Shown here: positions 2,317 through 20,388 of the stretch, one piece after another
How positions within the stretch are numbered: the stretch's first letter is position 1
How the letters are laid out: the number at the start of each line of letters is the position of its first letter
NCBI GenBank assembly: GCA_030272585.1
Contig: BSYQ01000002.1
Span: forward strand, 62,001-126,000
DNA length: 64,000 nucleotides
Direction of reading: 5' to 3'
Source of the DNA: Bryopsis sp. KO-2023
Taxonomy: Eukaryota; Chlorophyta; Ulvophyceae; Bryopsidales; Bryopsidaceae
Translations under genes and position numbers: made by a program
Notes under the pieces: generated by a model
Seen by the model: only the letters and a program-made list of their open reading frames with translations
The model's database searches: none
What the model was told of the DNA's origin: nothing

Positions 2317-2737
2317 TGTTAGTCTTTTAGCGCTATACGAGGTAGTTTGGGATAGAGCCGAGGGTGGCTGACGCATGTGGGTTCACGAGTAAGACAGATT
2401 AGACCCAGAGTTTGGGGCATGCGTCAGCGTACTACACTTAGGGGTACTTAAGAGGCCCACTCGTTGTTTTGACACTCATAGTTACTTTGTAAGAACTCGG
2501 GATTCGTGGGATTGGTGTGTTCCCGCTTGTGTGTGTGTTTGTGTGTGTGTGTGTTAAGTGTTTGCCTGACGCAATCACTTCCCAACCCAAGTGCTCTAGT
2601 AGCGTTCACAACCGCGCTAGCTAGAGAGTTGTCTAAACCAACAAACCCCACAAGTATACTTGCGTTAGCCAGCAAGTTATCACGAATCCAATCAACACAG
2701 CCGACCACTATTGCGTCACCCACAAGCTTCACTATCA
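2317..2737 (+). repeat. 5' LTR of element B
   Basis: The 421-bp LTR runs from TGTTAG to CTATCA. It carries four TGACGCA/TGCGTCA heptamers, a TATA-like GTACTTAAG and a GT tract. It is the presumed promoter for the element RNA. Confidence 0.96.
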
Positions 2738-2739
2738 AT

Positions 2740-2751
2740 TGGTTTCGGAGC
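2740..2751 (+). other. Primer-binding site of element B
   Basis: TGGTTTCGGAGC starts 3 nt after the 5' LTR. TGG is the complement of a tRNA CCA end, so the primer tRNA should end in GCTCCGAAACCA. The identical 12-mer follows the 5' LTR of all four other elements whose 5' end is visible or inferred. I cannot name the tRNA isotype from this alone. Confidence 0.85.
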
Positions 2752-2882
2752 GAGGCAAGAACTTTAAGTTCTTGAGATCGAAACTTGTGAACGTGGCGCA
2801 ACAAACGTTTTTGTTTGTTTGTTTGGTAGAGAGAAACTCCAACCGTGGTTGTTGAGTACTCCCAAATAGTGGCTGAGAAACC

Positions 2883-5534
2883 ATGGCTGACCGTGAACAC
2901 GCATTGGCAGTGCGCGAGCCTCAAGTTGAAGAGCCAGGGATTGAACCTGAGTTCGATGAGGAATTGCCTGACGCACCCAATGTTGTGTATCAACAAATAA
3001 ACGTCCAGAACATCCACAATGTCCAGCAAGCAGCTGTCGACATAGACATGGGAGCTGATGCGGAAGCCTTAAGAGAGGATGTGGATGCGGTCCATGACCG
3101 TGTGGACGATTTAGCCCACGGGCTAAGGGGTCACCTGCAGCAAGTTGACCAGACACTGGGGCAGAGGCTAGCCCATGCTGAGGTCTCTGTGTCGAACCAA
3201 CTGGCTGGCGCATCAGAGGTGATCGGGCAGGCGCTGGAAACACAGCACCAGCATGCGCAACAGGTTGAGGCCACACAGCATGCGGTGGTGTCGCAACAGC
3301 AGAAGCTGGATTCAGTAGCGGCTCAGCATAGTCGATACGAGCAGAGGCTATTACGCCAAGATATCGACCATAGAAAAGAAAGAGCCGAAATCAAAGCTTC
3401 TGTGGACGCAATAACGAGGAGAATGGATGCCGCAGACATTCTAGCGGACTCTCGTTTTGCTGACCTAAAAGAATCAACTGAAGCATCAGCACTTCAGTTA
3501 AAACAACTCTCCGAGTTATCCCTTGTTCAAGGGCGGAGAATTGAAGGCTTATTAGGAACTGTTGCGGATTCCAACGAAAAAGTCGAACGGACTCTAGAAT
3601 TGTTTCGGGAGTCCTTGCACAAACAAGGTGCTGAGGTGAAGCGTTTGCAGAGCTCCAGAGTAGCAATTCAAAAAGATTTGATTGCCTTGGAGAAAAAGGC
3701 ATCCAAAACCTGGGATCAGCAGCAAGATGCAGCTGATGTGGTTGCCTTAAGATTATCTGGCCTGGAACGAAGCATGGAGGATGTGAGTGGCGGAAGTCAG
3801 AGTGCCCAAAGTGGAAGTGATGCTCGTGCAGTATCACCAGAGCGAGAAGAATCAACTTCTCCTGAGCCTGAGGACTCAGCCTTTGGGATGCCACTGCCGA
3901 AGAAATCAGTAAAGCAGTTGGCTGCATCATGGCCGCCACTAGACCAGAGCTTCGCGGTAGGAATGGTTGGGGCAGGAACCTCAACAATACCGGCTCCTCC
4001 AGCAGTACAGGTTGAGGAGGGTGAAATTGTTGCTGCAGAAGCACCACCATGCACTGCAGTGGACAGCGCACCAGACGTTGATTTCACATTCCCTCAGTTG
4101 ATACCTCCAAGTACAAGAGCTCAGCCTGGAGTACGCATCTCAGAACCCGACTCTGCCGATGGATCACGTAGACCCACACGAACTAACCCAAGAGTTCTCT
4201 CCTCAGCAGAAGTGTTATATCAAATTGACCTTGAGCGTGCTAAGGCACAGGTCAGAGAAGAGAAAGGAAAAGAACCCATGCAGATCCCCACACGTACTGG
4301 AAGATTGGGACTTGGGTTAAGTGCTTTGGGAGCAAGGGTAGAAAATAATCCCTTTGCTGCACTTGGTTCATATGAGTCTACTGGTGGACCCAGTCGAGTT
4401 CCTCGCATGCGTGGTAACTTTGGAGACCCTGGTGATGACGACCCAGATGATGATGGCGGTGATGATTACCGCGACAGACGAAACCGCCCACCTTCCCGCA
4501 TTCCAGGTGCGCCTGATGGCGGTGGAGGTGGTGGCGGCGGTGGAGATGGTGGAGGCGGTGGACCTCCCGGTGGACCTCCTGATGGAGGTGGAGGTGGAGG
4601 TGGCGCTGGACCAGCAGGCCCAGGACCTCCTAGGCAAGGACAGTGGTTGCCTAGCACTGTCAAGTTGCAAATGCCTCGCGCATTTAACGGAAGTGGAGAA
4701 CCAAAAGCCCGTAAATGGCAAGTGCTCATGACGCGGTACTTGAGAACCTGCGGAGTGCATGAAGCACAGTGGCAATCGATTATGGCCACTAACCTTTATG
4801 GAGCTGCCTCGGATTGGTTAACGATGCAAGAGTTGAAAATTCACCGAGGTGAAAGACCACCCTTCCGTGACTGGATGGACTTCATGGATGGCTTAGCTAC
4901 AGCTTTCGAATTCTCTAGTGATCGAGATGAAGCGTGGCGTGACCTCCACAAACTCAAGCAGACTGGAACCGTGAAACAGTTCGTTAAAGAGTTTCAGCGG
5001 TTAGTCTTGAGGATTCCAGACCTCGAAGAGGATCACCAGTATTTGCTCTTCGTGGATGGACTTAAGAGTGAAGTTCAGAAGTTAGTCGCAGCAACGGTAC
5101 CTCGAGATGTCGAGGCCGCCATCATATCCGCCGAACGATTGGAAGCCCTTGGAGTTGGAACACAAGGCCAAGGAGGGCAGACCAATCAGAAAAAGAAAGG
5201 AGTCTGGCGTGGTGGAAGAAAGAAGAAAGGCCAGAATCAGGGTCAGCAGCAGCAGAACCCCACACCACCAGCCCAAGCACCACCACAAGCTGCCGCAGGA
5301 GTGCAACAGCAGCAGCAACAGCAACAAGGACGAGGAGGAGGACGTGGTGGTGGTGGACGTGGACGCGGTGGTGGTAACCGTGGAAGAGGACAAGCCAATC
5401 AGGGAAGACAGAACCCCCAGGGGGGAGGGGGATATAATTGTTATCTTTGTGGAAAGAAGGGTCACCCTGTGAGGCAATGTCCTAGATTGGAGGAGGTGAA
5501 AAACCTCCCCGATGTAAAAAAAATGTTAAACTGA
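2883..5534 (+). CDS. gag: Gag of element B
   Basis: This 883-residue structural protein should form the virus-like particle and bind element RNA. The N-terminal half (about 30-330) is acidic and coiled-coil rich; a Ser/Pro-rich linker follows. A Gly-rich stretch lies near 540-585, then a retrotransposon Gag/capsid domain (about 595-760; blocks include GAASDWL and FVDGLKSEV). Next come an RG/Gln-rich basic tract and a CCHC zinc knuckle, CYLCGKKGHPVRQC (C-x2-C-x4-H-x4-C), close to the C-terminus. The ATG lies 131 nt after the PBS and is the first long-frame start. The gene overlaps pol in the -1 frame through a slippery run next to its stop. It is much longer than typical Ty3 Gag because of the coiled-coil half. 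Confidence 0.93.
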   Translation: MADREHALAVREPQVEEPGIEPEFDEELPDAPNVVYQQINVQNIHNVQQAAVDIDMGADAEALREDVDAVHDRVDDLAHGLRGHLQQVDQTLGQRLAHAEVSVSNQLAGASEVIGQALETQHQHAQQVEATQHAVVSQQQKLDSVAAQHSRYEQRLLRQDIDHRKERAEIKASVDAITRRMDAADILADSRFADLKESTEASALQLKQLSELSLVQGRRIEGLLGTVADSNEKVERTLELFRESLHKQGAEVKRLQSSRVAIQKDLIALEKKASKTWDQQQDAADVVALRLSGLERSMEDVSGGSQSAQSGSDARAVSPEREESTSPEPEDSAFGMPLPKKSVKQLAASWPPLDQSFAVGMVGAGTSTIPAPPAVQVEEGEIVAAEAPPCTAVDSAPDVDFTFPQLIPPSTRAQPGVRISEPDSADGSRRPTRTNPRVLSSAEVLYQIDLERAKAQVREEKGKEPMQIPTRTGRLGLGLSALGARVENNPFAALGSYESTGGPSRVPRMRGNFGDPGDDDPDDDGGDDYRDRRNRPPSRIPGAPDGGGGGGGGGDGGGGGPPGGPPDGGGGGGGAGPAGPGPPRQGQWLPSTVKLQMPRAFNGSGEPKARKWQVLMTRYLRTCGVHEAQWQSIMATNLYGAASDWLTMQELKIHRGERPPFRDWMDFMDGLATAFEFSSDRDEAWRDLHKLKQTGTVKQFVKEFQRLVLRIPDLEEDHQYLLFVDGLKSEVQKLVAATVPRDVEAAIISAERLEALGVGTQGQGGQTNQKKKGVWRGGRKKKGQNQGQQQQNPTPPAQAPPQAAAGVQQQQQQQQGRGGGRGGGGRGRGGGNRGRGQANQGRQNPQGGGGYNCYLCGKKGHPVRQCPRLEEVKNLPDVKKMLN
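5516..5522 (+). promoter_or_regulatory. Predicted -1 ribosomal frameshift site, gag to pol
   Basis: The heptamer A AAA AAA is in the correct phase of the gag frame (codons AAA AAA after a codon ending in A) and lies 10 nt before the gag stop. Reading codon by codon, the -1 frame is open from here through the pol ATG at 5789. This is a canonical X-XXY-YYZ slip site. Confidence 0.72.
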
Positions 5535-8500
5535 CCGCCAGGCAGGAAACTGCTTCGTCTGAGCCTGGCCGACGCAAACGTCGTAAGCGAAACAGAGTTC
5601 GTAGGCGGCGTAGGAAGCATAGATCAAAAGTAGGTGCCTCGAAAAAGGTTTGTACTCACAGCGGAAAACCTGAGGAGCGGACTAGTACACCGCGTGAAGA
5701 GAGAACAGAGACACTCTCCACATCTACCCAATCGGCACATGACAACTGCGATTGGAAAAATGAACAGAAGGAAAGCACACCGGATGAGATGGACGCGCCT
5801 CATGCGTCATCTGCATCTCTTCCCTCTGTGAGTGAATCTGTGGGCTCATTGGAGTCGCAGAGTAGTCTACAGGAGTCCCTGCCTGCAGACGTAGACGATA
5901 GTGGGTCAGAAACAATCCAGCGGTCTACCACAGAGCGAGTTAATGTGTCAGAAGTTCGATCAACTTCATCAACCAAGGGTGACACATGCCCTCTGTTAAA
6001 AATTCAAGAAGTGCCTGTGAGAGGGTACGAAGTAAAAGCACGGATCAAGACCACGGACCTTTATGCATTCATTGATTGTGGAAGTACCGCAAACTATATC
6101 AATGATAAGGTAGCGCGTGATCTCGGGTTGTCGATTACACCAAGCTCCAAGAGAGCAATGTTGGCAAACGGAGATATTAAAGAACTGGCTGGCAGCTGTA
6201 ACAACCTCCGAGTAAAGATAGGAGGGCTGAAGTGCAAAATGAAAGCGGATCTGTTCCCAGACCTTGGTTATGACCTAATATTGGGCATGCCTTGGTTGCA
6301 GAAAGAAAACCCCCGCATAGACTTTCAGCAGAATGAGATTTCAGTTTGCAAAAACAGCCAAGTGTTTCATCTCCCGTTGCGTCATCCAACCCAAGAGAGT
6401 ATTGAACCTGAACGAAAAGTACAGTCGATACTGCAAGAAGTGCCAGTGACTGAGTGTTCAGCTAAGAGAATGATGCGTCATCTCAAAACAGAGACAGCAT
6501 TCATGGTTGTAGTGCAAGAGTCTGAAGAGAAAGCTTTAGGCCAACATGAATTGCCTGACGCAATAGAGCGAACACAGCCATTCAACACTGAGGATGAGAT
6601 TGGCAAACTTATTCGTTCAGACACCCCTGCCGAAATTAAAAAGGTGGTAGAAACACACCGTGGTGTGTTCCCTCGTGATTTACCCCCAGGGATCCCTCCG
6701 AAGAGAAAAGGTCATGAGTTTAAGATAGACCTGGAGGATCCAACACCTATCCATCGTCCAATATACAAGCTTTCACCAGCAGAGCTGGATGAAGTGAAAG
6801 CACAAGTGGACTACCTTCTGGAACAGAAGAAAATCAAACCATCCGAGTCCCCTTGGGGCGCGCCAATCCTGTTTGTACCAAAAAAGGATGGAGGCTTAAG
6901 GATGTGTGTGGATTACAGGTGGATCAATAAGGTGACGGTGAAAAACCGATATCCTTTACCCCTGCCAGAAGAATTGATGGATAGAGTGTTCAAAGCCAAA
7001 GTGTTCTCAAAGTTAGATCTGCGATCAGGCTATTGGCAATTTCCAGTAAGGCCATCTGATACAGATAAAACAGCGTTCCGCACGAGATACGGTCACTTTG
7101 AGTTTTTGGTAGCGCCTTTTGGGCTAACCAATTGCCCAGCGCAATTCCAAACTCTAGTGCAAGACCTACTCGCAGAGTTTTTAGATGATTTTGTTGTTGT
7201 CTTTATTGATGACATACTCATCTTCTCTGACAACATGGAACAGCATGCCGAACACTTAGAGAAAGTCCTGTCGCGACTAGCAGAATATCAACTTTTTGCT
7301 AAGGCAAGTAAAAGTGAGCTGGCTGTCGCAACAGTAGACTATCTTGGCTACCGCATTAGCGGAAGTGGGTTAGAACCACAGGAACAAAAAGTGAAGGCAG
7401 TGAAGGAGTGGAAGGAACTACAGAGTGTTAGTGATGTACGTAGTTTCCTTGGAATGGTTTCATACTACAGGAAATTCATTCCCCAGTTTGCACATATTGC
7501 TGGACCACTCCATGACTTAGTGAAAAAAGACCATCCCTGGAGATGGGGACAGGTTGAGCGTGGCGCATTCAATGAACTGAAAAAGCGTCTAAGTCAAGCT
7601 CCCGTCCTTATTTTTCCAGATGCGTCACTGCCTTACACTGTGATCACTGATGCGTCGAATGAGGCCATCGGTGCCGTGTTAACACAGGATCACGGAGAGG
7701 GGCTACAGCCAATAGCTTACCTCTCACGTAGATTCAAGCCTGCCGAGCTTAACTATGCACCATACGACAAAGAGTTGTGTGCAATATGTTATGCGATGGT
7801 GCAGTGGAGACATTATCTAGAAGGTTGTGCGGGTGGAGTAACAGTGTTCACTGACCACCAACCTCTGACGCATATTCTGTCGCAGAGGAACCTTTCTAGA
7901 ACCCAAGCAAGATGGCTTGAGGCGGGGTACCTGACTTCGATCAACCCCAAGATCTCCTATATCAAAGGCAAGGCTAATGTGTTAGCAGATGCTCTCTCCC
8001 GCAGTGTTCCTAAGCCCGTGGAAACTGCGATGAACATTTCCACTTGGCAAGTGCATCAAGCAAGCCAAGACGAGTGGAAACAAGCCCTCCAAGCTGATAA
8101 CTCCTTGGTGAAGATATTGCGGAAGCTTGAGAGTGGCGAGGAAGTTGAGGGATATTTCCTCAGAGAGGGAATACTCTGGACGGTCCCAAAGAGAGGATTA
8201 GTCGAGAAAGTGGTGGTTCCTAAAGGCCAGCGCAATAAGATCATGAAGGAGTGCCATGAGACACCTTCAGCAGGCCATACAGGACCAGCGCGAACAGGAG
8301 AAATCCTCGCGCGGCGATATTGGTGGAAGGGGTGGATGAATGAGTTGAAGGCATTTGTGCGCGAATGCCCTGTGTGCCAACAAATAAAAGCTGACACACA
8401 GAAGCCTATGGGCTTACTTCAACCCCTGCCAATACCTGAGCGGAAGTGGGAGCAGATTACCACTGACTTGGTGACAGATCTACCAGCATCCAATGGGTTT

Positions 8501-9529
8501 AGTGCTGTAGCTGTCTTTGTCGATAGACTTACCAAGTTTGTGCATTTCGCCCCATGTACTAAAGAGATTACCGCTGCAGGATACGCCCAACTTTTTATCG
8601 AACATGTTTACCGCAACCATGGCCTACCTAAAGTGATTGTGTCTGATAGAGACCCTCGCTTTACCAGCAAGTTCTGGCAGACGCTTTTTAAAGCTCTGGG
8701 TACAGAGATTCGTATGAGTACAGCTTACCACCCTCAGACGGATGGGCAGAGTGAGGTTACCATACGTACTCTGGAAAATTTTCTAAGGCCATATGCTGAG
8801 AGGTATCCCCATAAGTGGGTTGAGTATTTACCTACAGCAGAGTTTGCAGCAAACAATGCAGTGAATGCGAGTACAGGGTTCGCACCTGCATACTTGATGT
8901 ATGGGTACCATCCAGAAACACCAAACATTGGTGGGACGGCAACGCAATTTCAAGTGGAAGCAGTTAAGACTATGGTAGCACGGATGGCACAGGACTTAGA
9001 TACCGCAAAAGCATATTACTCTAGAGCACAACACAGAATGTGTGTGAGTGCAAACAAGAAGAGGAAAGATATTGCTTTTGAAAAAGGGGATAAAGTCCTG
9101 ATAAAAAGCCGTTTTATTCCGTTGGCTGCTTTGAACAAAGTGAGTCCCAAACTGCGCCGTCGATTTGTGGGTCCCTTTGAAATTGTGGAGAAAATATCAA
9201 AGGTGGCTTACAGAGTTCAACTTCCGGAAACATGGCTCATTCACCCAGTGTTTCATGTTTCTAAGTTCAAGCGTTATCACGCCTCGAGTGATAACAGCAG
9301 GCAAATACAACCTCCAGAAGGAGAGTTGATTGGTAGCGAAGTAGAGTATGAGGTCGAAAATATCCTAAGGGCTAGAGGTAAACGCAATCGTGAATACCTA
9401 GTGCTGTGGAAAGGATACGATCTACTTGACGCTACTTGGGAACCTGAAGCTAATCTGGTTAACGCACCAGATATACTTCGCGCATTTAAAGAGAAAGAAA
9501 GAAAAGAGTTGCAGAAAGGAAGAGAATAG
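5522..9529 (+). CDS. pol: Pol of element B (protease, RT, RNase H, integrase, chromodomain)
   Basis: This is the -1 frame extension of Gag; an internal ATG lies at 5789 and residues below count from it. A basic Arg/Lys-rich N-terminal part is followed by a retropepsin (IDCGST near 97, LILGMPW near 164), RT (LRMCVDYRWINK; VVVFIDDILIFS near 470), and RNase H (TDAS near 619). Integrase has an HHCC zinc domain (GHTG ... CPVCQ near 829-866) and a DDE core (TDLVTDLP near 892, VSDRDPRF near 950, DGQSE near 988). A C-terminal chromodomain lies at about 1187-1235 (YLVLWKGYD ... TWEP). All catalytic residues I could check are present. The chromodomain places it among chromoviruses, whose integrase can be guided to modified histones. 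The protease uses D-C-G rather than the common D-S/T-G. Confidence 0.95.
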   Translation, partial: NVKLTARQETASSEPGRRKRRKRNRVRRRRRKHRSKVGASKKVCTHSGKPEERTSTPREERTETLSTSTQSAHDNCDWKNEQKESTPDEMDAPHASSASLPSVSESVGSLESQSSLQESLPADVDDSGSETIQRSTTERVNVSEVRSTSSTKGDTCPLLKIQEVPVRGYEVKARIKTTDLYAFIDCGSTANYINDKVARDLGLSITPSSKRAMLANGDIKELAGSCNNLRVKIGGLKCKMKADLFPDLGYDLILGMPWLQKENPRIDFQQNEISVCKNSQVFHLPLRHPTQESIEPERKVQSILQEVPVTECSAKRMMRHLKTETAFMVVVQESEEKALGQHELPDAIERTQPFNTEDEIGKLIRSDTPAEIKKVVETHRGVFPRDLPPGIPPKRKGHEFKIDLEDPTPIHRPIYKLSPAELDEVKAQVDYLLEQKKIKPSESPWGAPILFVPKKDGGLRMCVDYRWINKVTVKNRYPLPLPEELMDRVFKAKVFSKLDLRSGYWQFPVRPSDTDKTAFRTRYGHFEFLVAPFGLTNCPAQFQTLVQDLLAEFLDDFVVVFIDDILIFSDNMEQHAEHLEKVLSRLAEYQLFAKASKSELAVATVDYLGYRISGSGLEPQEQKVKAVKEWKELQSVSDVRSFLGMVSYYRKFIPQFAHIAGPLHDLVKKDHPWRWGQVERGAFNELKKRLSQAPVLIFPDASLPYTVITDASNEAIGAVLTQDHGEGLQPIAYLSRRFKPAELNYAPYDKELCAICYAMVQWRHYLEGCAGGVTVFTDHQPLTHILSQRNLSRTQARWLEAGYLTSINPKISYIKGKANVLADALSRSVPKPVETAMNISTWQVHQASQDEWKQALQADNSLVKILRKLESGEEVEGYFLREGILWTVPKRGLVEKVVVPKGQRNKIMKECHETPSAGHTGPARTGEILARRYWWKGWMNELKAFVRECPVCQQIKADTQKPMGLLQPLPIPERKWEQITTDLVTDLPASNGFSAVAVFVDRLTKFVHFAPCTKEITAAGYAQLFIEHVYRNHGLPKVIVSDRDPRFTSKFWQTLFKALGTEIRMSTAYHPQTDGQSEVTIRTLENFLRPYAERYPHKWVEYLPTAEFAANNAVNASTGFAPAYLMYGYHPETPNIGGTATQFQVEAVKTMVARMAQDLDTAKAYYSRAQHRMCVSANKKRKDIAFEKGDKVLIKSRFIPLAALNKVSPKLRRRFVGPFEIVEKISKVAYRVQLPETWLIHPVFHVSKFKRYHASSDNSRQIQPPEGELIGSEVEYEVENILRARGKRNREYLVLWKGYDLLDATWEPEANLVNAPDILRAFKEKERKELQKGRE

Positions 9530-9977
9530 GGAAGCAGAGTGTTTGATGGCTAAGGTGGAACTCCTTATTGCAAGGGGGCGCGAAAAAGGATACCTTAGAA
9601 AAACTCTGTCGACTTCCAAACCAACTCTTTAACTTTAATGCGTTAGGTGCCTAAGTTATTTGGCTGGCGCAGTAAGTGTAGCTTCAGTAGTACTTTAGAA
9701 ACCGGGCAAACGATGTCACATTCGAGATAGTGTGGTTGTTCCGAGAAAACCCCTATCAAGTGACGTGTTGAGGTGGTCTTGACGAGACTCCAACCGAGCG
9801 AAACGTTGGTGTCTCACCCCAATAACTCAACGAGGAAAGTGTACGAGTCACCCAGCCTTATAAGCGCAGCCCTCGAACCATTTTGCCCTAGTGTTTGTGT
9901 AAACGGAGCGAGCTCCTGAGTGAAAAGAGTCTAAAGACGCACAAACCGTTGTTATTTCTTTCTTTCCGACAAACATA
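9530..9977 (+). other. Intergenic spacer between pol and ORF3 of element B
   Basis: This stretch has no long frame in the sense direction. ORF3 begins after it with a clean ATG, so ORF3 is not joined to pol by a simple overlap. A separate transcript, splicing or internal initiation would be needed. A TATA-like sequence (CCTTATAAGCG) lies near 9856, about 120 nt before the ATG, and could mark an internal promoter; this is a guess. Confidence 0.4.
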
Positions 9978-11792
9978 ATGGCTGCCGACACACCCGCCGC
10001 AATTATTGCGAGGTTGGAAGCGGAGGTAGCTCAAAAAGAAGAGGAGCTGCAGCACTTTGTTACGACCGCAGAGGAGGTGCTGCAGAACAATGAGGCCTTA
10101 ACCCGGCAGCTCTCAGAGTTGAGTGACCGGACGAAAGCAGCTGAGGCTGCGAAGGAGGCAGCGGAGAAAGCCAAGGATAAGGCGGAGGCGGAAAAGAAAG
10201 AAGCGGAGGACAAGACTAAGGTCTTGGAAGAAAAATTGGAAGCCATGAAGCTGAAGAAGCAGCGGTTCCAATCTCACATGATGGCTAACCATCGTGAGAA
10301 TGACCTCCGCAAGCAAGCTCTCGGGGGAATGGTGGATCGATTTACCGCGGTAGAGGAAACGCTGCAGCGAGCTGTAGCAACCGCGTGGAGTGCAGCAGCC
10401 AACAACCTTAAGAAGGAATTGGCAGAACAAGAGCTGCAGATCGATTTGCTGGGAGAGTCCCTCAGAGACGGCTCTGAAAAACTTCAAGTGCAGAGCGAAA
10501 CAACGGACAAGATGCTGCGTTTGAACCCGCCGGTACCAGCACCACGGGTACGCGAAGAACTGGATCGCCAAGTCCAAGTTCTGTTGTCAAACGCAACACT
10601 TGATCTGGAACCGTCCAAGGACGATGATGCGGGAGGCTCAAGCAAGGGCAAGGGGAAAGGGAAAAACAAACGTCCAAGCTCGCCGTGTAGGGATGAAGAT
10701 CCACACGGAAAGAGAAGGCGAGAGGACGGTGACGATGAAGGTGGTGAGCCACCGAGGGATCGTATGCCTGGAGATGCAGCAAGAGCCAACTTGTTACTCA
10801 AGTTAAAGGCTGCCGCATTAAAAACTCCAGCACCCTCACAACCAGCACCAACAGTTCAGACTCCCGGAGATGAGGCTACCGCAATAGCACCGGGGGAGGA
10901 CTTATTCGACATGAGAGAGGAGGAGCTTTTGGACTTGGATTTTAACGAAGAAATTGACTTCGGCAGTCCACCTCCTAGGCTCGAAGGTCCTAGTTCTGAA
11001 CTGGAGGACGGGGAAATAAGGAATGATGAAGGGCCAAGCCAGGTGACAGAGGTTCAGCGTGCGGTCCATCCACCGTTGGAGTTAGCTCCAACAGAAGCAG
11101 CACTTCGGGCTTTCCGAGAAAAGGTTAAGCTCAGGAGACTAAGGGCGGCTGCTCAAGACAAAGTGGATGCTGCACCCAGCGAAGTGAACCTGTCACGGGA
11201 GGATATCGAGGAGGCTTGCAACCCCATCACTGCGTCAGAGAAATGGCCGAAGGTCCAATATACTAACCCCAGGGACCGAGCCTTGCAAAATTACCGCGGC
11301 AACCGGCACTTTCACGAGTTGCCCATGTGCATTTGGTGCGGGAGAAGCCCAATGCAAGCAAGTGCTCAGCGGCTGACGCAGAAGAAGTATTCCGTCCTTC
11401 CTTGTGGGTATCACCTCGTGTGTGATGCTCATTGGTTGGCATACTCGATGCTGGGGCGCATCGTCACGGCGGTCCAAAAAGTCGCGGAAGTGGACAACAA
11501 GTCCATCGCCACCGTCTCCCCATTCTCTCTACCTGCCCATATGTTGAAGCTGACACGCTCGACGTTCGAAGAAATCCCTTCGTTCCCGGCTGAGCACGAG
11601 AAGTTGCCACACTGCAACATGTGTGTGAAGCGGCAGCTCAAGGTGTCCGGCATCACAAGGGATCTGCCATTCCTTAAGTCCAAGAGGGTGGCTGCCGCAT
11701 TTGATCCCTGTGTCCGGTATCGTGCAGTGCAGCAAGCGCATGCGCAGGAGCAGCGTGCTATTCAGCAAGCGCAAGCGCAGGAACAGCGTTAA
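9978..11792 (+). CDS. ORF3 of element B, coiled-coil and RING-like zinc-binding accessory protein
   Basis: This 604-residue protein lies on the sense strand between pol and the 3' LTR. Residues about 5-175 form a long Ala/Glu/Lys-rich coiled coil. A basic KGKGKGKNK tract (about 220) and an acidic stretch (about 310-355) follow. The C-terminal third carries CIWC, 20-odd residues, CGYHLVCDAHW, about 60 residues, then CNMC. This ligand order (C-x2-C, C-x2-H-x2-C-x2-H, C-x2-C) resembles a RING-type cross-brace. Homologous arrays occur in elements C, E and I despite little other similarity. It has no signal peptide or membrane segment, so it is not a typical env. A role as E3 ligase, chromatin adaptor or nucleic-acid binder is inference only. 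Confidence 0.85.
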   Translation: MAADTPAAIIARLEAEVAQKEEELQHFVTTAEEVLQNNEALTRQLSELSDRTKAAEAAKEAAEKAKDKAEAEKKEAEDKTKVLEEKLEAMKLKKQRFQSHMMANHRENDLRKQALGGMVDRFTAVEETLQRAVATAWSAAANNLKKELAEQELQIDLLGESLRDGSEKLQVQSETTDKMLRLNPPVPAPRVREELDRQVQVLLSNATLDLEPSKDDDAGGSSKGKGKGKNKRPSSPCRDEDPHGKRRREDGDDEGGEPPRDRMPGDAARANLLLKLKAAALKTPAPSQPAPTVQTPGDEATAIAPGEDLFDMREEELLDLDFNEEIDFGSPPPRLEGPSSELEDGEIRNDEGPSQVTEVQRAVHPPLELAPTEAALRAFREKVKLRRLRAAAQDKVDAAPSEVNLSREDIEEACNPITASEKWPKVQYTNPRDRALQNYRGNRHFHELPMCIWCGRSPMQASAQRLTQKKYSVLPCGYHLVCDAHWLAYSMLGRIVTAVQKVAEVDNKSIATVSPFSLPAHMLKLTRSTFEEIPSFPAEHEKLPHCNMCVKRQLKVSGITRDLPFLKSKRVAAAFDPCVRYRAVQQAHAQEQRAIQQAQAQEQR

Positions 11793-11961
11793 GGAGGAGG
11801 GAAAAGGAGTTATCGTCGACCAAGTGTGTGCGTGCAGCAGCTGTCAGAGACGTCAGAGCAAGAGACAGGTCCAAGACAGTTGGGTGTGGGTATGGGAGTG
11901 GGTGAGTTTTGTGTTTTTGTTTTTCTTTGTGTTTTGGTGTGCGTGGGCGCCCACTTTTTGC

Positions 11962-11969
11962 GGGGGGGG
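11962..11969 (+). other. G-run serving as polypurine tract of element B
   Basis: Eight G end 4 nt before the 3' LTR. No A/G-mixed purine tract is present at this position, so the G-run is the likely plus-strand primer. Confidence 0.6.
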
Positions 11970-11973
11970 CGTA

Positions 11974-12394
11974 TGTTAGTCTTTTAGCGCTATACGAGGT
12001 AGTTTGGGATAGAGCCGAGGGTGGCTGACGCATGTGGGTTCACGAGTAAGACAGATTAGACCCAGAGTTTGGGGCATGCGTCAGCGTACTACACTTAGGG
12101 GTACTTAAGAGGCCCACTCGTTGTTTTGACACTCATAGTTACTTTGTAAGAACTCGGGATTCGTGGGATTGGTGTGTTCCCGCTTGTGTGTGTGTTTGTG
12201 TGTGTGTGTGTTAAGTGTTTGCCTGACGCAATCACTTCCCAACCCAAGTGCTCTAGTAGCGTTCACAACCGCGCTAGCTAGAGAGTTGTCTAAAGCAACA
12301 AACCCCACAAGTATACTTGCGTTAGCCAGCAAGTTATCACGAATCCAATCAACACAGCCGACCACTATTGCGTCACCCACAAGCTTCACTATCA
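11974..12394 (+). repeat. 3' LTR of element B
   Basis: The 421-bp LTR is nearly identical to 2317-2737 and is followed directly by the TSD TTCGA and the continuing LINE frame. Confidence 0.96.
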
Positions 12395-12399
12395 TTCGA

Positions 12400-14440
12400 C
12401 CTGGTTTGGCCCCCCCAACTTATGACCAGAATGAAGGACATGGGGTGCCCGTGGTACCTCCAGCGTTGGGTGTGGGACTTCATCTCGAACAGGCGGGCAA
12501 AAATCATGGGGAACATTTTTCAAACACACTCTGGGACACCTCAGGGCTCACCATTAAGTCCAACTCTCTTCCTAATGGTGGTGGACGAGATCATTCGGAA
12601 ATGCTGCAAAACGAGACTCAGCACTAAAGGCACCCAACAAATCATACCAGTCGTTTTCGCTGATGACATATTTTTGCTGTCCACCCATTACCAAGAGGAC
12701 CAAATGGAACTTACGGAGTCTGTGTTGGGGGCGATGGCCACCTGGGCTTATGAAGCCAGAATGAAATTTTCTATCCCGAAATGCCACACAATGGTATTTT
12801 CGAGAAAACGTTTTCCTCCACTGGCGAAGGTAACGTTGGGAGGTGAAGCAATCCAGCCGGCATCTAATATCAAGTTCCTGGGGATCATTTTTGATCGGCG
12901 ACTGAGCTTTACTCAACAAGGACATCGAGCTCTGGGATCGGCAAGGAGAAAACTTCATCATTTACGCAAATTTGCTGGAGCAAACTGGGGCCCACCGAGC
13001 ACATTATTGGCTGTCATGTTCTCCAGCCTGATTGAATCCTCTCTATATTTCGGTGTGGAAATCTGGGGACTGAATCTATCCACAACCAAGAAAGCCATCT
13101 TCTTCGACAAAATCATTCATGATTGCTTACGATGGATTCTGGGGGTACACAAATCTACTCCTATCGAGTATCTCTACCTTCTGGGTGGAGTGTTACCTCC
13201 TCAGATGATGATACTCCGATCGGTGTGGCGTGGTGGATTGCAAGCCAGGAAACAAGGATCCTCACACCCGTGGTTATTCTGGCCACAATCACGACGGGAG
13301 ATTCGACCGGGCACTGCCTCATGCTCTAGCCTCCATTGGTTTGGGACAACATTTCAATCCATTCTGATTGACCTTAACAATTTTATCAACCCCAGGGACA
13401 CTCTCTTGGAATGGCTAAACGTTCCATTCAGTGATCTCGATCGGTGGCCACCGTTTGGGCAACCTATTCAAGACTGGATTACACTGATGGAGGATAATGA
13501 ATTGGACCCACAGGATCCGATTTACGCCCAGATCCGTAGTGGTAGAGGTCATACGAGCATTTGGCTAAGCAGTAGGGTACTGCCCCAGTCTGGAGGTTTT
13601 GTGTGGGTAATTAAGAATGCGGATGGGCATCTGGAGACTGGCCGACATTACAAGGGATTCTTTGACGAGGTATCATTGATGATGCAAGGATTAATGTTTG
13701 CTATCCAAGGATTAACATCAGAGTCCCTCCACAGCAATCAGAAATTCCACATATTCTTACCATCCAAGTGCATCTCGTGCTTGCTGGGAAGGACGGCCAA
13801 TCCGGATATTGTGAGTCAGCTCCTAACCTCTGTCCAATGTTGGCCGGCGAAGACATTCTCGGTGTGGGAGATGGACTCCGAACATCCACGATGCAAGGCT
13901 GCTTTGGACCGGACGATGAGTGGGCAGCCATCACCATATTCTCCAGCATTCCCAGCTCCTGTATGGAACATGGAAACACTCTCAAAATGGATGGATCGGT
14001 GGTTGGACTCTAAGGTCAATTCATTTTTGGTCCAAAGCTCGGGGCTCCCAGGCTTTCACTCCTTCCAGAAAGCATGGCCTTTCAAACAGAGGCAACTGAT
14101 TGGAGGAAATCAACACAAGAGAACGACATCACTTCTGGCTCAATTTATTTCAGGGCACTTTCCGTGCAGGTGGTTGAGTTTTGCTAAAGGTCAAGCACAA
14201 TGGGCTGGGTGCGATTGTGGAGCAAAATACGAATCACAGTATCACCTCCTCTTGGTGTGCCCCTGCTTCCGAGATTTCAGATCATCAAACGGCCTCCCTG
14301 GTGATGCTGGCTCCCTGGTGAAGCTGACTATTCCTACATCCAAATGGACACAGGTTTTGACTCAGATGGCAGCTTTCATAAGCTTGCTGTATCATATTCG
14401 TCGACAGTGGAACGCCGAGGGAAGGAAATGGTTGTCATGA
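12400..14440 (+). CDS. LINE reverse transcriptase, C-terminal part
   Basis: This is the continuation of the frame at 2069-2316. It carries the RT motifs GTPQGSPLSPTLF and FADDIFLLS (the second and third catalytic Asp), a thumb region, and a long C-terminal part with a possible degenerate RNase H-like domain (FVWVIKNADGHLETG). It ends in a Cys/His motif, CDCG ... HLLLVCPCF, of the kind at the end of Tad1/I/Jockey-type LINE ORF2. The ATG at 12368 belongs to the LTR and is not the LINE start. The frame has no stops over about 680 codons, so the LINE was intact until the LTR elements inserted. Confidence 0.88.
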
Positions 14441-15163
14441 CAGGGTGGGTCTGTCTCTGGAAGAAGTATCCTCTCTGTGGCGAATAACTGTGCAAGCTCC
14501 CACGCCTTACCTCGTCTTATGAGACCGCGATGACGACGCCTGTGAACTACTGCGAGGCTGTCCGTGCAAGGATACACCACCACGGTGTGACGCAAGTGGT
14601 CAGGTGTCGCTGTTACCTCGTCTCATGCGGACAGCTCCCACGTACTGACGCCGCTGTCAAAGTTTCGAGGTGAACGGTGGACGACTGCAAGGTTATGGGA
14701 TGAGAATGTGGGTTCTATCACAGCATGGATATTGGTTGGATCAGGCTGGATTTCGTCTGACTGGGGAACTCTACGGATATGGATTGGAGAAGGAAGATTT
14801 GCACGCAAATCGCGTGATTATGGGTTTTTGGATGGATATGACGGGCAGGATACTTTGATGACAGGAATTTTTTATTGGGTGGTGGTCTGGGTTCCAACTA
14901 CATTGTTGGACCAGAGTCACTACTACCTCAGAATCGAAGGTGGACAGAAGGGCATTATTGGGAGTGTTTTGGGAGTTTTTGCTTAACCCCATCATTTATT
15001 GAAGGGCCTTTGCTTGACCCTTGGTGGCTAGTCTGAATGCTGTCAGACTGGTTTCATTTTTGGGTTTTTGGGTTTTTTCATTTTTGGGTTTTTGCTTAAC
15101 CCTGTTGATGGTTGAGGGGCCGTTGCTTGACCCGTTGCAGAATTTGTTTGGATTTGGTGAGTT
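14441..15163 (+). other. LINE 3' untranslated region
   Basis: This non-coding stretch follows the LINE stop codon. Its distal part has degenerate direct repeats of GTTTTTGGGTTTTTGCTTAACCC and GGGCC(T/G)TTGCTTGACCC between about 14965 and 15135. No poly(A) tail is seen before element C begins at 15164. Confidence 0.55.
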
Positions 15164-15351
15164 TGATACGAACGTTTAGAATTGTAGTACAGTCGTGGTA
15201 CGGGTATTCGGGTTCTAGGGTGTTAAGTTCAGAGAGAACTTGTAAAAATTAATTATCTCTGAGTGTCGAGTTTCACCCCTGTTCACTCGTTTCTCAAACT
15301 CAAGTGTGCATACAACCTCCCAGTGAAAGCCTAGCTAAACAGGGCCTAACA
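15164..15351 (+). repeat. 5' LTR of element C (family 2)
   Basis: The 188-bp LTR runs from TGATACG to CTAACA. It is identical, or nearly so, to the 3' LTR at 20389 by eye. It is unrelated in sequence to the family 1 and 3 LTRs. Confidence 0.95.
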
Positions 15352-15354
15352 AAC

Positions 15355-15366
15355 TGGTTTCGGAGC
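15355..15366 (+). other. Primer-binding site of element C
   Basis: TGGTTTCGGAGC follows the 5' LTR by 3 nt, the same 12-mer as in families 1 and 3. Confidence 0.85.
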
Positions 15367-15418
15367 CGAAGCAACCCCTACTGCAAGTCGAGTCTTCTTT
15401 TCGAAAAGATCGACAGGG

Positions 15419-15505
15419 AATTTTTACAAGTTCTCTCTGAACTTAACACCCTAGAACCCGAATACCCGTACCACGACTGTACTACAATTCTAAACGTTCG
15501 TATCA
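15419..15505 (-). repeat. Inverted LTR fragment inside element C
   Basis: These 87 bp are the reverse complement of the first 87 bp of the LTR (TGATACG to GTAAAAATT). On the minus strand it is preceded by GGGAGTAGT, the same bases that precede the genuine 3' LTR at 20389. It is therefore the 5' part of a 3' LTR in opposite orientation, joined directly to the leader of the forward 5' end. Confidence 0.92.
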
Positions 15506-15515
15506 ACTACTCCCT

Positions 15516-15708
15516 TCCGTTCTCGTTCTCGTGACTCCCGGAGCTTTTGACGTTTGCGATGCTTGTATCTTCGGCGTCTGGCTCTTTTCCTTCTGGCCGC
15601 ATGGAGTGAAGTCCCCTCTATGCGGCGTGATCTTTTAGCCACTTTTGAAAAGTTGGGCCTTTGGGACATTTTCCAAAGCCATGACCCACTTCGCCGCAGA
15701 TGTAACAT
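15516..15708 (-). pseudogene. pol: Pol N-terminal stub of element C
   Basis: The -1 frame overlapping the end of gag encodes an Arg/Lys-rich stretch (RRKRARRRRYKHRKRQK). It matches in character the basic start of Pol in family 3 (SAKRRRARRHRYKQRQK). The frame runs straight into the inverted LTR after about 60 codons, so protease, RT, RNase H and integrase are deleted. The element could move only with enzymes supplied in trans. Confidence 0.8.
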
Positions 15709-18581
15709 GCGCCTCCGCCTCTAGCTCCGCCTTGCTGCTGCTTTCCGCCACCACCTCGATTTCGTCCGCCACCTCGTCTTCCGCCTCTTCCGCGGCCACG
15801 GCCGCTTCCACCTCTGGTGCCTCCTCCCATTTGCTGATTTTGATCTTGGGGTGGAGGTGGTGGTTGCGGTTGCTGACCCTGCATCTGCTGGTTCTGGTCA
15901 GCTTTGGGCTTGTTTTTCCAATTCCAGTTCCATCGCCCTCGTCCGCGACCACGTCCGCGGTTGTTTTGAGATTGGCCACCCAACGAATCGATTCTTTCGG
16001 CAGTGACTATCGCCGCTTCCACTCCTTCTGTCACCATTGTAACAACTTGATGTCGGATCTGGGGTTTCAATCCGTCAACAAACTGTAGGTACTGTTCCTC
16101 CTCCGTCATATTCGGAATTCTGAGTATGAGATCCCGAAATGCGTTGATGTAGGAACGAACATTCCCTGTTTGTTGAAGTTTCCGCAGCTTCCTACGCGAA
16201 ACATCGGACATCCTTGTGGGCTCAAAAGCAATGGCTAGTTCCTCCACAAGTTGAATCCAGTCCTGGAACATCGGACGAACTCCTTCCCGAATCCGCATCT
16301 CTTGCATATTCCGCCATGTGGCGGCTGAACCAGAGAGATTTGTGCGGAATACTTTAAGCCAAACAGACTCATCCAAATCATACACTTTGCAGAAGTTGGT
16401 GAGTTCTGCCTGCCAATCCCGAATCCAGCGATCTCCAGCGCCAGTATACGGTTTCGGCATCGGGAATTTGACCGCATTGGGAATGTGAAGCAAACGATTT
16501 TCTGGACGTGCATAGCCCATAAAATCGGGGCCCCCACTTTGGGGACCAGGAGGTCCGCCTCCTCCGCCACCTCCACCACCACCATCTCCAGGACCGCCTC
16601 CTGGGTTCCTAGATGGTCCTTCTCTTCCTCCACCAATATGTGGTCCAGGTGCAGACCCACGGCCACTTCTGTCCGATGGGCCTCCGCCACTTCCATCACC
16701 GGAACCATCATCATCTCCACCTCCGCCTCCTCCGCCTCCTCCGCCTGCGCGTTGAGGAATACGCGGATAGGATCCCCATCCCACATAGGGGTTTCCGGAT
16801 GATGGAGCTCCGTATACATTCACGGAGTGACCTAAGATAGAAGGCCGAATGTATGATGCTCCCATGGCATAATAGCCGGGTGGTGAAATCATTGATGGAT
16901 GTGATAACACTGGCTGAGAAGCTGGTGGTGGCATGGGTAATGTTCTAGGTGGCTCGGGTGACGTGGTTGTTGGAGTTGTCAGCGGAACAGTTTGTACCAC
17001 GGGAGAAGCCTGCGTACGCTGTGGCGGTTGTACTGACTGTAATACCGCTCGTGGTCTTGTATTTGGTGTTTGTCCAAACACAGCGCTAGGCCTCACGGTC
17101 GGCCTAGGTACATTTCCCTGTCCGCTGATTGCACTGCCTCGCCCCACTCCAGGAATAATGACTGGGGGTGATGCAGGTCGGGTAATCGGTCTATTTGCCC
17201 GCGGGAATACTGGTGGTATTGGCGGGAAACCTACTGAATCCGGGGCAAAGCCGGATGAGGTTTGGGGCGGTTGACCGAATGGAATTTGTACTTCGGACAA
17301 TCTTGGTGGTTGTGCCACCGTTCTGGTTCCCGCTCCCGCCATAGCAGCCACAAGAGGTGTTTGTTGAGCAGCGGATGCCATTTGTGTGGCAACTGCTGCA
17401 GCATCTTTCTTCCGCCAAAACTCAAAATTCGACGTGAACTTTGTGTCCGCTACATCTTCAAACACCTTCTTTAGCTCTTGTGCTGTTTCTGGATCTTGTA
17501 GCATATCTTGTAACATTTCCCGCGGTTCTCTGCTCCTTGTTGAGCTTCTTGATCTGCTTCTCCTTGAAGACCGACTTTGACTTCCTTTCAACTCCTCCAT
17601 TTCCATTTGTAATCTAGCCGCCGCTTCTTTCGCAGCCGCCGCCTCCTTTAACAAATAGGCTACTTCCGCATGATGCTGTGTCTGAAAACTTTCCGCCCTG
17701 TCTTTAGTCTCTTCGAGATCATGCTTAACACGAATGAGTTCTTTGAACTGTTTACTCTGACCCGCGTCCACCAATGCTTGGGTCTCTCTCAGTTCTTGTT
17801 GAACCGTATCCAACCCCCAAAGGGCGTCGGTATGTTGCCGGTCAAACTCTTCTTCGAGTTTCTTTCTTTTTTCGTCCGTGTCAGCTACTTGTTCCGCCAA
17901 TATCCGCTGAGCCTCTTTGGCTTCGTCCACCTCTTTCTGGGCGACATCACCGATATTCGCCAAGCCAGCTTCCATTTGGCTGAGCCTCCCCTTGGCTGCA
18001 GCATCCAGATCTTGTATCCGCTCATCCAACCTCTCACTGAGCTGTCCTTCGATCTGGTGATGGCGGGACTGTAGAGTAGAGTCCAACACATCATGTACTT
18101 GGGAAGCCATGCTTGAACAAGCTCCCTCTACCCGACTATCAAGATGTTTGGCGACCTGGGCTGTTCTGTGGGCAGCCTCGTCCGACAATTGGCTATACAA
18201 CCGCTCTTGCGATTGTTGGAGATCGCGCTCCTGCAAACCGTCATTGTGAACGTGCAGAGTTTGATTATGTACATTCACTTGGCTTTGGCGCAGGTGCTGC
18301 GTTTGCTGATTGATGAATACTCCTGGCTCTTCGTCCATCTCTTCATCAAATTGCGGGCCATTGTCGGCTTCCTCATCGCCTCCCTCTTCCACCATATCCG
18401 GTTGTACGGGTATGCCATACGCTTGTAGCGGCTGGCCCATTTCTGCCTGGTAGGGCAGTCCGACAGCAGGTATGTCTCCAGCGACGATAATCGGATATAG
18501 CGGCGCGCCAGCTGGGGCATCGCGCTCTTGATTGTCGTCCTCGATTCCATACTCCAGGAATAACTGCTCGTCGTCCCCCAT
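15618..18581 (-). CDS. gag: Gag of element C (family 2), in inverted orientation
   Basis: This intact 987-residue Gag has an acidic N-terminus, a motif with VNVHNQTLHVHN near 125 and a long coiled coil (about 130-340). An Arg/Ser-rich patch (SRSSRRSRSRSS, about 340-360), a Pro-rich region and a Gly-rich linker (about 625-695) follow. The capsid domain lies at about 705-860 (SGSAATWRNMQ ... FVDGLKPQI). After an RGRGRG basic tract comes a zinc knuckle CYICGEVGHGFGKC. It lies antiparallel to the flanking LTRs, so the LTR promoter at 15164 would transcribe its antisense strand. The coding frame is unbroken, so the inversion is recent or Gag is still expressed in another way. Confidence 0.92.
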   Translation of the reverse strand: MGDDEQLFLEYGIEDDNQERDAPAGAPLYPIIVAGDIPAVGLPYQAEMGQPLQAYGIPVQPDMVEEGGDEEADNGPQFDEEMDEEPGVFINQQTQHLRQSQVNVHNQTLHVHNDGLQERDLQQSQERLYSQLSDEAAHRTAQVAKHLDSRVEGACSSMASQVHDVLDSTLQSRHHQIEGQLSERLDERIQDLDAAAKGRLSQMEAGLANIGDVAQKEVDEAKEAQRILAEQVADTDEKRKKLEEEFDRQHTDALWGLDTVQQELRETQALVDAGQSKQFKELIRVKHDLEETKDRAESFQTQHHAEVAYLLKEAAAAKEAAARLQMEMEELKGSQSRSSRRSRSRSSTRSREPREMLQDMLQDPETAQELKKVFEDVADTKFTSNFEFWRKKDAAAVATQMASAAQQTPLVAAMAGAGTRTVAQPPRLSEVQIPFGQPPQTSSGFAPDSVGFPPIPPVFPRANRPITRPASPPVIIPGVGRGSAISGQGNVPRPTVRPSAVFGQTPNTRPRAVLQSVQPPQRTQASPVVQTVPLTTPTTTSPEPPRTLPMPPPASQPVLSHPSMISPPGYYAMGASYIRPSILGHSVNVYGAPSSGNPYVGWGSYPRIPQRAGGGGGGGGGGDDDGSGDGSGGGPSDRSGRGSAPGPHIGGGREGPSRNPGGGPGDGGGGGGGGGGPPGPQSGGPDFMGYARPENRLLHIPNAVKFPMPKPYTGAGDRWIRDWQAELTNFCKVYDLDESVWLKVFRTNLSGSAATWRNMQEMRIREGVRPMFQDWIQLVEELAIAFEPTRMSDVSRRKLRKLQQTGNVRSYINAFRDLILRIPNMTEEEQYLQFVDGLKPQIRHQVVTMVTEGVEAAIVTAERIDSLGGQSQNNRGRGRGRGRWNWNWKNKPKADQNQQMQGQQPQPPPPPQDQNQQMGGGTRGGSGRGRGRGGRRGGGRNRGGGGKQQQGGARGGGACYICGEVGHGFGKCPKGPTFQKWLKDHAA

Positions 18582-18984
18582 GGTGGATGTCTTGACTTGT
18601 CGGCGGGCTGATCACGTGTCAGTTCGGTGAATCACTTTGCCGGTGATCCACGTGACTAATTGGTCACTCTTTGCCGCGCAATTTCTGGCAGCGTAACTTT
18701 TGGCGGAGCTCCGTTTCCGTCTAAAGACGTCCGCTTAGCGGTTCCGCTTCGTCTGCCTTTCTGTTTAACCACGTGTAGCGTCGACAACTCTGTGACGAAC
18801 TGAAGGTCTACTACGCCGTGCTGTGTGGTCGTAGAGTCCGAGGATCTACAGATCCTGCGCGATCTTCGAGGGAATGATCAGGCGCAGCAACGTGCGTTCT
18901 GTGTCGTCCAGCGTAAAGTTGGTGCGCAGCAACACGAAGTAGGTTCCAGACACGAGAGGAAACCTTCTTCGACCTAGTTGACTT
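18582..18984 (-). other. Gag 5' leader of element C (inverted) and inversion breakpoint region
   Basis: This non-coding stretch lies upstream of the inverted gag. I find neither an LTR end nor the PBS 12-mer here. The right inversion breakpoint must lie between the gag leader and the start of ORF3-like coding at about 18985. Confidence 0.55.
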
Positions 18985-20236
18985 GATCAGTCCTTCTATA
19001 TCAAAGAAAACAAGGAATTGCGGGAAGCTCAGACAAAACGCTTCCAAGCGCTGACGCAGTTGGAGAAAGAGGTGGCGGCCCTGAAAGCGAAAAAAAGCGG
19101 CGGACAAGCGTGGTGAGCGAGTCGGGCTCGAGACCAAGATCATGATGACGGAGTTGCTAGCATCCCGAGCGGAAGCGGCAAGGCTTCGTCACATCTTGGA
19201 AAAGTTCCCACAAGATTTGGCGGCCATGGCAACTGGAGTCGTCCAAGGGAAGCTCCACACTCTGTCCGATCAAATGTCGCTATTGCATAAGGGGAAATTT
19301 CAAGATGTGGTTGACATCCACAAGATAAAAGAAATCACCCTGACGCATACAAGCTTGCCGCCCGCAAATGAACTAAAGCATGTCCGAGACTGGGATGGAA
19401 GACTCACGAGGGAGGCCACCAAGATTGCGAAGATGCTGGGCCGACCACCATCGCAGCCGACAAAAGAGGACGACAGCAGCGATGACAGTGATTCCTCGGA
19501 AGATGAACAACACCGAAAAGAAAAGGAAGCTGCGGAGGCAGCCAAGGCAGCGGCCGACATTCTTTTGGCCGACAAATTGAAGTCCGACAAAGCTAAGTCC
19601 GACAAAGCTGCAGCCGACAAATTGAAATCCGACAAAGCAGCAGCCGACAAAGCTAAGACGGACAAGATCAAGCCCAAGCCCAAGCCAATCAAGACGACAA
19701 CACCGACCCGCAAGAGAATGCGTCCATCAAAGATTGCGAAGGAGTTGGAGGAAACGCTGCTTAAACGTCACAAGGCAAATGGTGATCCTCGGTTGTTGGG
19801 CCGCACTTGTTATCATTGTGCAGGACGACAACTGCATGTGGGAATTCCTGCAGATTGTCAGTCCCACTTTGTGTGCCCCAAACATTGGACCAGACACCAG
19901 GTGACGGAGAGAATGATCCAGCGATGGAAGGACGACAAGTCTGTGGTTCCGCTCAACATGACTGTGACGGAACTGCATCTCGGCAAGCGAATGCCGGACT
20001 TCCTTCCCCTTGCACCACCACCACCAGCCGACGCCATCGACACTTTGGTTGTTCCATGCCAAATTTGTAATATCCGCAAATGTGGATTTCCTTCCGGCTC
20101 GAGCACGAAGGCTCTCCGGTCGACGATGACGACAATCCTTCATGAGATGTGGGATCCAGAGCAGGATATTGACTCAGACATTGACTCTGATGTTGCTGGT
20201 GGCGGCGGTACTGTTGGACCAAGCCAAGCCGACTAG
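18985..20236 (+). pseudogene. ORF3 of element C (5'-truncated, one frameshift)
   Basis: Coding character starts in one frame at about 18985 (Lys/Glu-rich coiled coil, KELREAQTKRF) without an ATG. It changes frame at a run of seven A (19090-19096) and continues as an open frame to 20236 (364 residues from the ATG at 19142). It contains an acidic DDSSDDSDSSEDE patch, a tandem KSDKAAADKL-type repeat (about residues 145-185) and the C-terminal array CYHC ... CQSHFVCPKHW ... CQIC. This is the family 2 version of the RING-like ORF3. Loss of the start fits the nearby inversion breakpoint. Confidence 0.82.
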
Positions 20237-20367
20237 AGACTGACCAAGCGAGAGACAGTGGTTTCGGGAGTTGGTAGTGGGCTGAGTGTTAGTTGGACTT
20301 TTTCTGTTGATTGACTTTTGGGATTTTCTTTTTCGTGTGTTGCCGCCCAAGGGTGAGGACACCCTTT

Positions 20368-20382
20368 GGGGGGGGGGGGGGG
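20368..20382 (+). other. G-run serving as polypurine tract of element C
   Basis: A run of 15 G ends 6 nt before the 3' LTR, the longest G-run at this position among the elements here. Confidence 0.6.
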
Positions 20383-20388
20383 AGTAGT

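Follow-up and report, generated by a model that had tools for sequence, protein, structure and literature searches.

Several Ty3/gypsy retrotransposons of the green alga Bryopsis sp. KO-2023 carry a long open reading frame (ORF) after pol. What does this third gene encode, and is it a real part of the elements? We analyzed a 64,000-nucleotide window of the genome (contig BSYQ01000002.1, positions 62,001 to 126,000 of the forward strand), with a focus on the third gene (ORF3) of element B. A preliminary description of the window had proposed that ORF3 is an accessory gene with a RING-like domain. We found that related ORF3s are present in four families of elements and that they are under purifying selection. 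In window coordinates, the features of element B are:

2312-2316 and 12395-12399: target duplication TTCGA, read off the sequence
2317-2737, plus strand: 5' long terminal repeat (LTR), with TG..CA ends
2877-5534, plus strand: gag frame, with matches to Retrotrans_gag and Ty3_capsid
5486-9529, plus strand: pol frame (stop at 9529), with protease, reverse transcriptase, RNase H, integrase, SH3, and chromodomain
9859-9863, plus strand: TATAA, a candidate internal promoter for ORF3, 119 nt 5' of its ATG
9978-11792, plus strand: ORF3, an ATG frame of 604 codons (604 amino acids) between the chromovirus pol and the 3' LTR
11328-11624, plus strand: zinc-type domain of ORF3, with putative ligands C451, C454, C476, H479, C482, H485 (followed by W486), C546, and C549
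11974-12394, plus strand: 3' LTR, with TG..CA ends

The whole element spans 2317-12394, and its LTRs (about 421 bp) differ at a single position (99.8% identical). In both element B and another element of the window, element I, pol has the order protease, reverse transcriptase, RNase H, integrase, with a C-terminal chromodomain (Chromo, E = 2e-12 and 5.9e-10), which identifies the elements as chromoviruses. The end of pol and the start of ORF3 are separated by a gap of 448 bases in B. The B protein has a charged, coiled-coil-like N-terminal part, then an acidic/basic linker with a KRRR cluster, and then the C-terminal zinc-type domain.

ORF3 is shared by four families of chromoviruses

The other copies of ORF3 in the window are:

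2-1453, plus strand: ORF3 of copy A, truncated by the start of the window; Arg replaces the Trp after the sixth ligand
19085-20236, plus strand: ORF3 of the rearranged element C, 383 amino acids, N-terminally truncated
19808-20068, plus strand: zinc-type domain of C
36596-38470, plus strand: ORF3 of element E, from the family of I; a stop splits it into frames 36596-37183 and 37184-38470, and Tyr replaces the first ligand Cys
47140-48909, minus strand: ORF3 of element I, 589 amino acids from the ATG
47479-47733, minus strand: zinc-type domain of I

The preliminary description had assigned a third gene with a common motif to B, C, E, I, and copy A, in three families. The gene and the motif are present in B, C, I, and copy A; as listed, the frame of E is broken, and E and copy A each depart from the motif at one residue. 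Elements E and I (about 97% DNA identity) belong to one family, so the three families are B, C, and I/E. To these we add a fourth, D, which lies outside the window and has its own pol and ORF3.

In B and I, ORF3 follows pol. The same holds for D (L057 with L048) and for the single C copy that we read, in which pol ends (in L055) just 5' of ORF3. Element I has the same gag-pol-ORF3 layout as B, on the minus strand. Element C of the window (15163-20576) has 100% identical LTRs that flank a gag in inverted orientation and an ORF3 in sense orientation, and we found no pol frame of at least 150 codons within it. Its ORF3 encodes 383 amino acids, versus 577 from the ATG in a full C copy (L039). Among the first 16 C matches listed for the 91 Mb genome, 14 lie in open frames of 621–633 codons, although one of these copies contains a stop; the other two are a frame of 477 codons and the one of 383 in the window.

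Eight Cys/His ligands align in the same order in B, I, C, and D, with the pattern C-x2-C, 12–21 residues, C-x2-H-x2-C-x2-H-W, 53–60 residues, C-x2-C. (A C-like relic, L054, is without the last pair.) A profile built from I, C, and D, without B, gave E = 4.9e-4 for B ORF3 and 0.016 for copy A, while the best of 6,000 shuffles scored 0.13. A profile of B only reaches I weakly (E = 0.2). In HH profile comparisons, the E values were 1.2e-6 for B and I, 1.3e-8 for C and I, 2.5e-8 for D and I, and 1.6e-64 for C and D. The comparison of B with D is weak by itself (1.5e-3), and B with C aligned the coiled coil, not the domain. The match between C and D covers most of the length, and that of I to C and D covers the domain. 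By profile comparison, then, the ORF3s of the four families are homologous, with B linked mainly through I.

We also searched the genome with the I domain. By position and identity, the best 150 of 332 candidates were 74 copies of I, 72 of C or D, and 4 of B (counts that are lower bounds), and the 4 B copies were matched in register (E = 0.004–0.01). No locus outside these families was seen among those best 150 in this intron-blind search. The B domain itself is found at at least 150 places (the best 150 of 272 candidates), with at least 99% identity. The identity of pol is 57% between B and I, 73% between I and D, and 92% between D and C (over a partial pol for C). The identity of the ORF3 domain follows the same order: 50% for C to D, 30% for I to C/D, and 26% for I to B. 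Most likely, ORF3 was inherited from a common ancestor of the B, C, D, and I families.

ORF3 is under purifying selection

For each family, we computed the ratio of nonsynonymous to synonymous polymorphism (pN/pS) among copies of ORF3. The samples were the best 8 of 73 matches for B, the best 30 of 72 for I, six of the top ten for C, and nine hand-picked places for D. Frames were recognized by the core of the motif, and no fetched copy was lost by that demand; copies L020, L046, and L052 were left out for broken frames. Across the whole gene, pN/pS was 0.099 in B (8 copies), 0.147 in I (26 distinct copies), 0.178 in C (6 copies), and 0.202 in D (7 of the 9 fetched). Because the best-scoring copies were chosen, pN is somewhat lowered.

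Within the domain, pN/pS was 0.135 in B, 0.030 in I, 0.031 in C, and 0.094 in D. Therefore, in three families (I, C, and D), selection is tightest on the domain; in B, the domain is no more constrained than the remainder of the gene. The tails that follow the domain are loose (pN/pS of 0.33 in I and 0.75 in D), and the ligand positions are invariant among 8 B copies and 29 I copies. Frames are free of stops in 71 of the 73 B matches, all of which are at least 99% identical, and in 62 of the 72 I matches, a number of which are partial.

The preliminary description had considered that a ratio of nonsynonymous to synonymous substitution rates near 1 would argue against a functional gene, and the values for the whole gene (0.099–0.202) are well below this. 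Together, the position after pol, the homology across families, and the pN/pS values (0.10–0.20 overall and 0.03–0.14 in the domain) bear out the proposal of an accessory third gene. We are nearly certain that ORF3 is a maintained accessory gene.

Is the domain a RING?

RING domains have C3HC4 or C3H2C3 ligands, with 4–48 residues between the sixth and seventh ligands. In all four families, the domain has the RING order of ligands, with eight ordered ligands, a pair at each end, and a central Cys/His cluster; this agreement concerns the order only. Two observations weigh against membership in the RING family. Relative to the consensus, the last ligand gap (53–60 residues) is too long, and the sixth ligand is a His. 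For the I domain, the match to zf-RING_5 is below the cut-off (14.9 versus 27.9 bits, E = 0.026). A Foldseek search with the predicted models of the domain found no significant fold match. The eight ordered ligands of the preliminary description stand, and its RING reading is best kept as putative.

The remaining evidence is a set of weak pointers. zf-RING_5 matches two of the eight aligned members, with I first. CEBP_ZZ has a sub-threshold match (E = 0.031) to one of the eight, and is not among the matches of our other Pfam scans of ORF3. With the I model, seven of ten Foldseek matches are to structures of RING, ZZ, FYVE, or Pirh2, all with E above 1. A sequence search of the PDB with the ORF3 domain returned chance matches only. 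The model of the domain from family C (predicted local distance difference test, pLDDT, of 82.6; predicted template modeling score, pTM, of 0.80) places ligands C47, H50, C53, and H56 among two strands (43-45 and 51-52) and a helix (54-72). The Pfam and Foldseek pointers favor a treble clef of the RING/ZZ type. The domain probably has a RING/ZZ-like fold, which would bind two zincs. By analogy, it might be a ubiquitin ligase, but we consider this doubtful.

As for the rest of the protein, sub-threshold Pfam matches to the N-terminal half of I and E include several to coiled-coil families, which suggests an N-terminal coiled coil. Basic clusters precede the domain in every family (KRRR in B, KKRK in I, RKR in C, and KRGKKR in D) and could be nuclear signals. 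Lys and Arg make up 14–19% of most thirds of the protein.

A TATA-like element precedes ORF3

All four families have a TATA-like element 99–126 nt 5' of the ATG of ORF3, as judged by patterns that were picked post hoc and without a chance control. In B, TATAA is at −119 to −121 in 7 of 8 copies; the eighth, L005, is interrupted at that place by another B element. (In two of the B copies, there is an additional TATAT at −25.) In I, CTTAAA is at −99 to −109 in all 29 copies. In C, TATAT is at −124 or −126 in all 6 copies. In D, TATAA is at −117 to −119 in the 3 of 7 copies that have 140 bases upstream, and also in L048.

The sequence around this element is unusually conserved in two families. 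In I, the stretch from −352 to −102 differs by 0–2%, versus 7.1% at third codon positions, and in C, the 6 copies are identical from −130 to −81. The B copies differ by up to 16% in the gap. The TATA-like element and the upstream conservation in I and C suggest that ORF3 has its own mRNA, and we think that an internal promoter is reasonably likely. We also considered the LTR that abuts the ORF3 leader in L005 as a sign of an RNA start. We dropped this idea; the arrangement fits a nested insertion.

ORF3 could instead be expressed from spliced genomic RNA, as env is, with the TATA-like element being a coincidence. In retroviruses, genes downstream of pol are usually expressed by splicing. Also, the alignment of the pol-ORF3 gap between families is weak, and the TATA patterns were selected after viewing the sequences; both points count against an internal promoter. 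On the other hand, coincidence would have to account for an element at a similar distance in four families and for its retention in the diverged B copies other than the interrupted one. We view splicing as the less probable route, but a serious contender.

A proposed role for ORF3, and alternatives

We propose that one group of chromodomain Ty3 elements (B, C, D, and I), in a green host, has ORF3 as an accessory gene. Its product would be soluble and would form oligomers. The N-terminal half is long, charged, and coiled-coil-like, a basic stretch might allow nuclear entry, and the C-terminal domain would be a cross-brace of the RING/ZZ type with two zincs. Most likely, the protein would be expressed from its own short mRNA, which would start at the TATA-like element and end in the 3' LTR. 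By analogy to coiled-coil RING proteins, it may act as a dimeric adaptor, and possibly as an E3 ligase, on a chromatin-associated or Gag-associated target. Taken as a whole, this explanation (an ancestral chromovirus accessory gene for a soluble coiled-coil and two-zinc adaptor with its own mRNA) is the one we favor, by a modest degree of belief. In a more specific version, the gene would have a dedicated internal promoter and encode a RING-class regulator, which as a nuclear dimer would act like an E3 and modify either a silencing factor of the host or the machinery of integration. This version seems unlikely.

The domain might instead be a ZZ/PHD-like chromatin reader that binds a histone or another host factor and acts with the chromodomain of integrase in targeting integration, without ligase activity. 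This would suit chromoviruses, and the CEBP_ZZ match, the ZZ match from Foldseek, and the basic clusters ahead of the domain are consistent with it. However, no reader domain matched significantly, and the order of ligands is closer to RING than to PHD, so we regard a reader as possible but doubtful. Another idea is that ORF3 encodes a particle-associated protein, such as a nucleic-acid chaperone or a Gag-binding factor in assembly or reverse transcription. That the gene is carried and kept by the element, and that the protein is rich in Lys and Arg, would fit. But Gag already has a CCHC knuckle (zf-CCHC in I has E = 0.0015, which is below the cut-off, and the pattern in B was read by eye), and the knuckle pattern is not in the ORF3 domain. 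This role is unlikely as well.

The preliminary description had allowed for a clear match to env or to an unrelated host gene, and we found neither. For env, the position after pol is the only point in favor. Retroviral Env has a signal peptide and a transmembrane anchor, and by hydropathy we found no stretch of transmembrane strength (the best 19-residue Kyte-Doolittle means are 1.01 in B, 0.93 in I, 0.85 in C, and 0.76 in D) and no strong signal-like start (the best 12-residue means in the first 30 residues are 1.21, −0.33, −1.38, and −0.56, respectively). Therefore ORF3 is not env-like, and we give that reading almost no weight. Recent capture of a host gene for a zinc protein has precedents: other LTR elements have acquired their accessory genes by capture, according to the main text of two studies (PMC9289625, PMC5408684). 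Here, though, the best 150 of the 332 matches to the I domain are all within the element families. Protein database searches found no relative; since they also missed the protein of the window itself, genomes of this kind may be absent from the database. In viral and genome contigs, with B pol and the C/D domain as queries, no relative was found, an absence that carries little weight. Overall, we consider recent capture to be quite improbable.

Comparison to known proteins and elements

BRE1 is a coiled-coil RING E3 protein. Like BRE1, ORF3 has a putative coiled coil and then a C-terminal Cys/His domain, and E has a match to Pfam's BRE1 (E = 0.0028, below the cut-off). But this match lies in the coiled-coil part and not in the zinc-type domain.

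Accessory ORFs have been described, in the article texts available, from rotifer, orchid, Retand, lycophyte, and fungal elements, and the ones given a name there are for the most part enzymes or env-like. In the Vesta and Juno elements of bdelloid rotifers, ORF3 encodes a GDSL esterase or a DEDDy exonuclease, and as in our elements, the extra gene follows pol and is common to related families (PMC5408684). In contrast to ours, the accessory genes named in that article's main text are enzymes or env-like, and the words zinc and RING are absent from it. An orchid Ty3 element has an ORF for an AlkB-type demethylase, which is also an accessory ORF in the green lineage that was kept over rounds of replication; but as presented there, that element is of the Tat family with a recognized enzyme (PMC9289625), while ours are chromoviruses with an unassigned domain. 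Fungal gypsy elements, most with a chromodomain, include some that are drawn with an "add. ORF" (PMC2864245); the likeness to ORF3 is in the drawn layout. Green-lineage chromoviruses with group I chromodomains include Chlamyvir from algae and SM1-Galahad from Selaginella (PMC3350952). These resemble B and I in having a green host and a chromodomain, which in B and I is in pol. Unlike our ORF3, the 309 bp ORF3 of SM1-Galahad encodes the chromodomain itself, and we saw no RING-like ORF there (PMC3350952). In the LTR-element literature, as covered by passages of open-licence PubMed Central articles, we found no RING-like accessory ORF. As far as we searched, what is new here is a family of zinc-type ORF3s in chromoviruses; accessory ORF3s as such were already known.

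The host and other observations

The preliminary description had assumed a fungal host, but the host is green, as indicated by its telomeres, rbcL, and cox1. TTTAGGG repeats fill five of the six contig ends that we read (contigs C1, C3, C5, and C9 are among these, and C2:1-300 is not). rbcL is on contig C28, and its best PDB matches include 1gk8, which we take to be a Chlamydomonas entry. Matches to cox1 are spread over 12.6 kb of contig C27. The best exon match is to 7jro (presumably mung bean) at 215.8 bits; next is an entry at 158.5 bits that we believe to be bacterial, and then entries at about 133 bits, which we assume are from yeast. Scans for hydrophobin and DUF6533 found nothing, but neither did their controls, so these scans carry no weight.

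Element B sits inside a reverse transcriptase frame (RVT_1, 12326-14440), which may be of the non-LTR type. On contig C9, five B ORF3 domains (273,010-314,470) have an exact spacing of 10,264 bases, like a tandem array of elements. At L071, L072, and L073, B is nested in or beside other B copies, and the junctions at L071 and L073, at B positions 9895 and 9531, fall between pol and ORF3. Because these loci were chosen for their closely spaced ORF3s, no insertion preference can be claimed.

Three long frames that carry the domain (C2:4419251, C2:1217426, and C1:11419209) were considered as fusions to host genes. These stretches show pol-ORF3 or gag-ORF3 junctions (L068, L069, and L070), so we take the frames to be from internally deleted elements. 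The reading covered these three; a fourth such frame is at C10:1273455.

Three long gag frames in the window (2877-5534, 53622-56540, and 15618-18611, with 885, 972, and 997 codons) have the capsid domain near the C-terminal end, after long N-terminal extensions. Also, a repeat of about 370–380 bases (90% identical, inverted) is found at 32086-32454, inside element E, and at 45327-45700, in the 45 kb region.

Implications

Four chromovirus families, with pols that diverge by as much as 43%, have all kept a single fast-evolving family of proteins, and the zinc-type core of these proteins is nearly invariant within families. The upstream TATA-like element makes separate transcription of ORF3 testable. 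If ORF3 is a RING-class regulator with its own internal promoter, then these would be LTR elements with a separately transcribed, ancestral gene for control of the host. And if ORF3 acts on chromatin or ubiquitin, it would offer a concrete way to ask how retrotransposons of the plant lineage handle silencing by their hosts.
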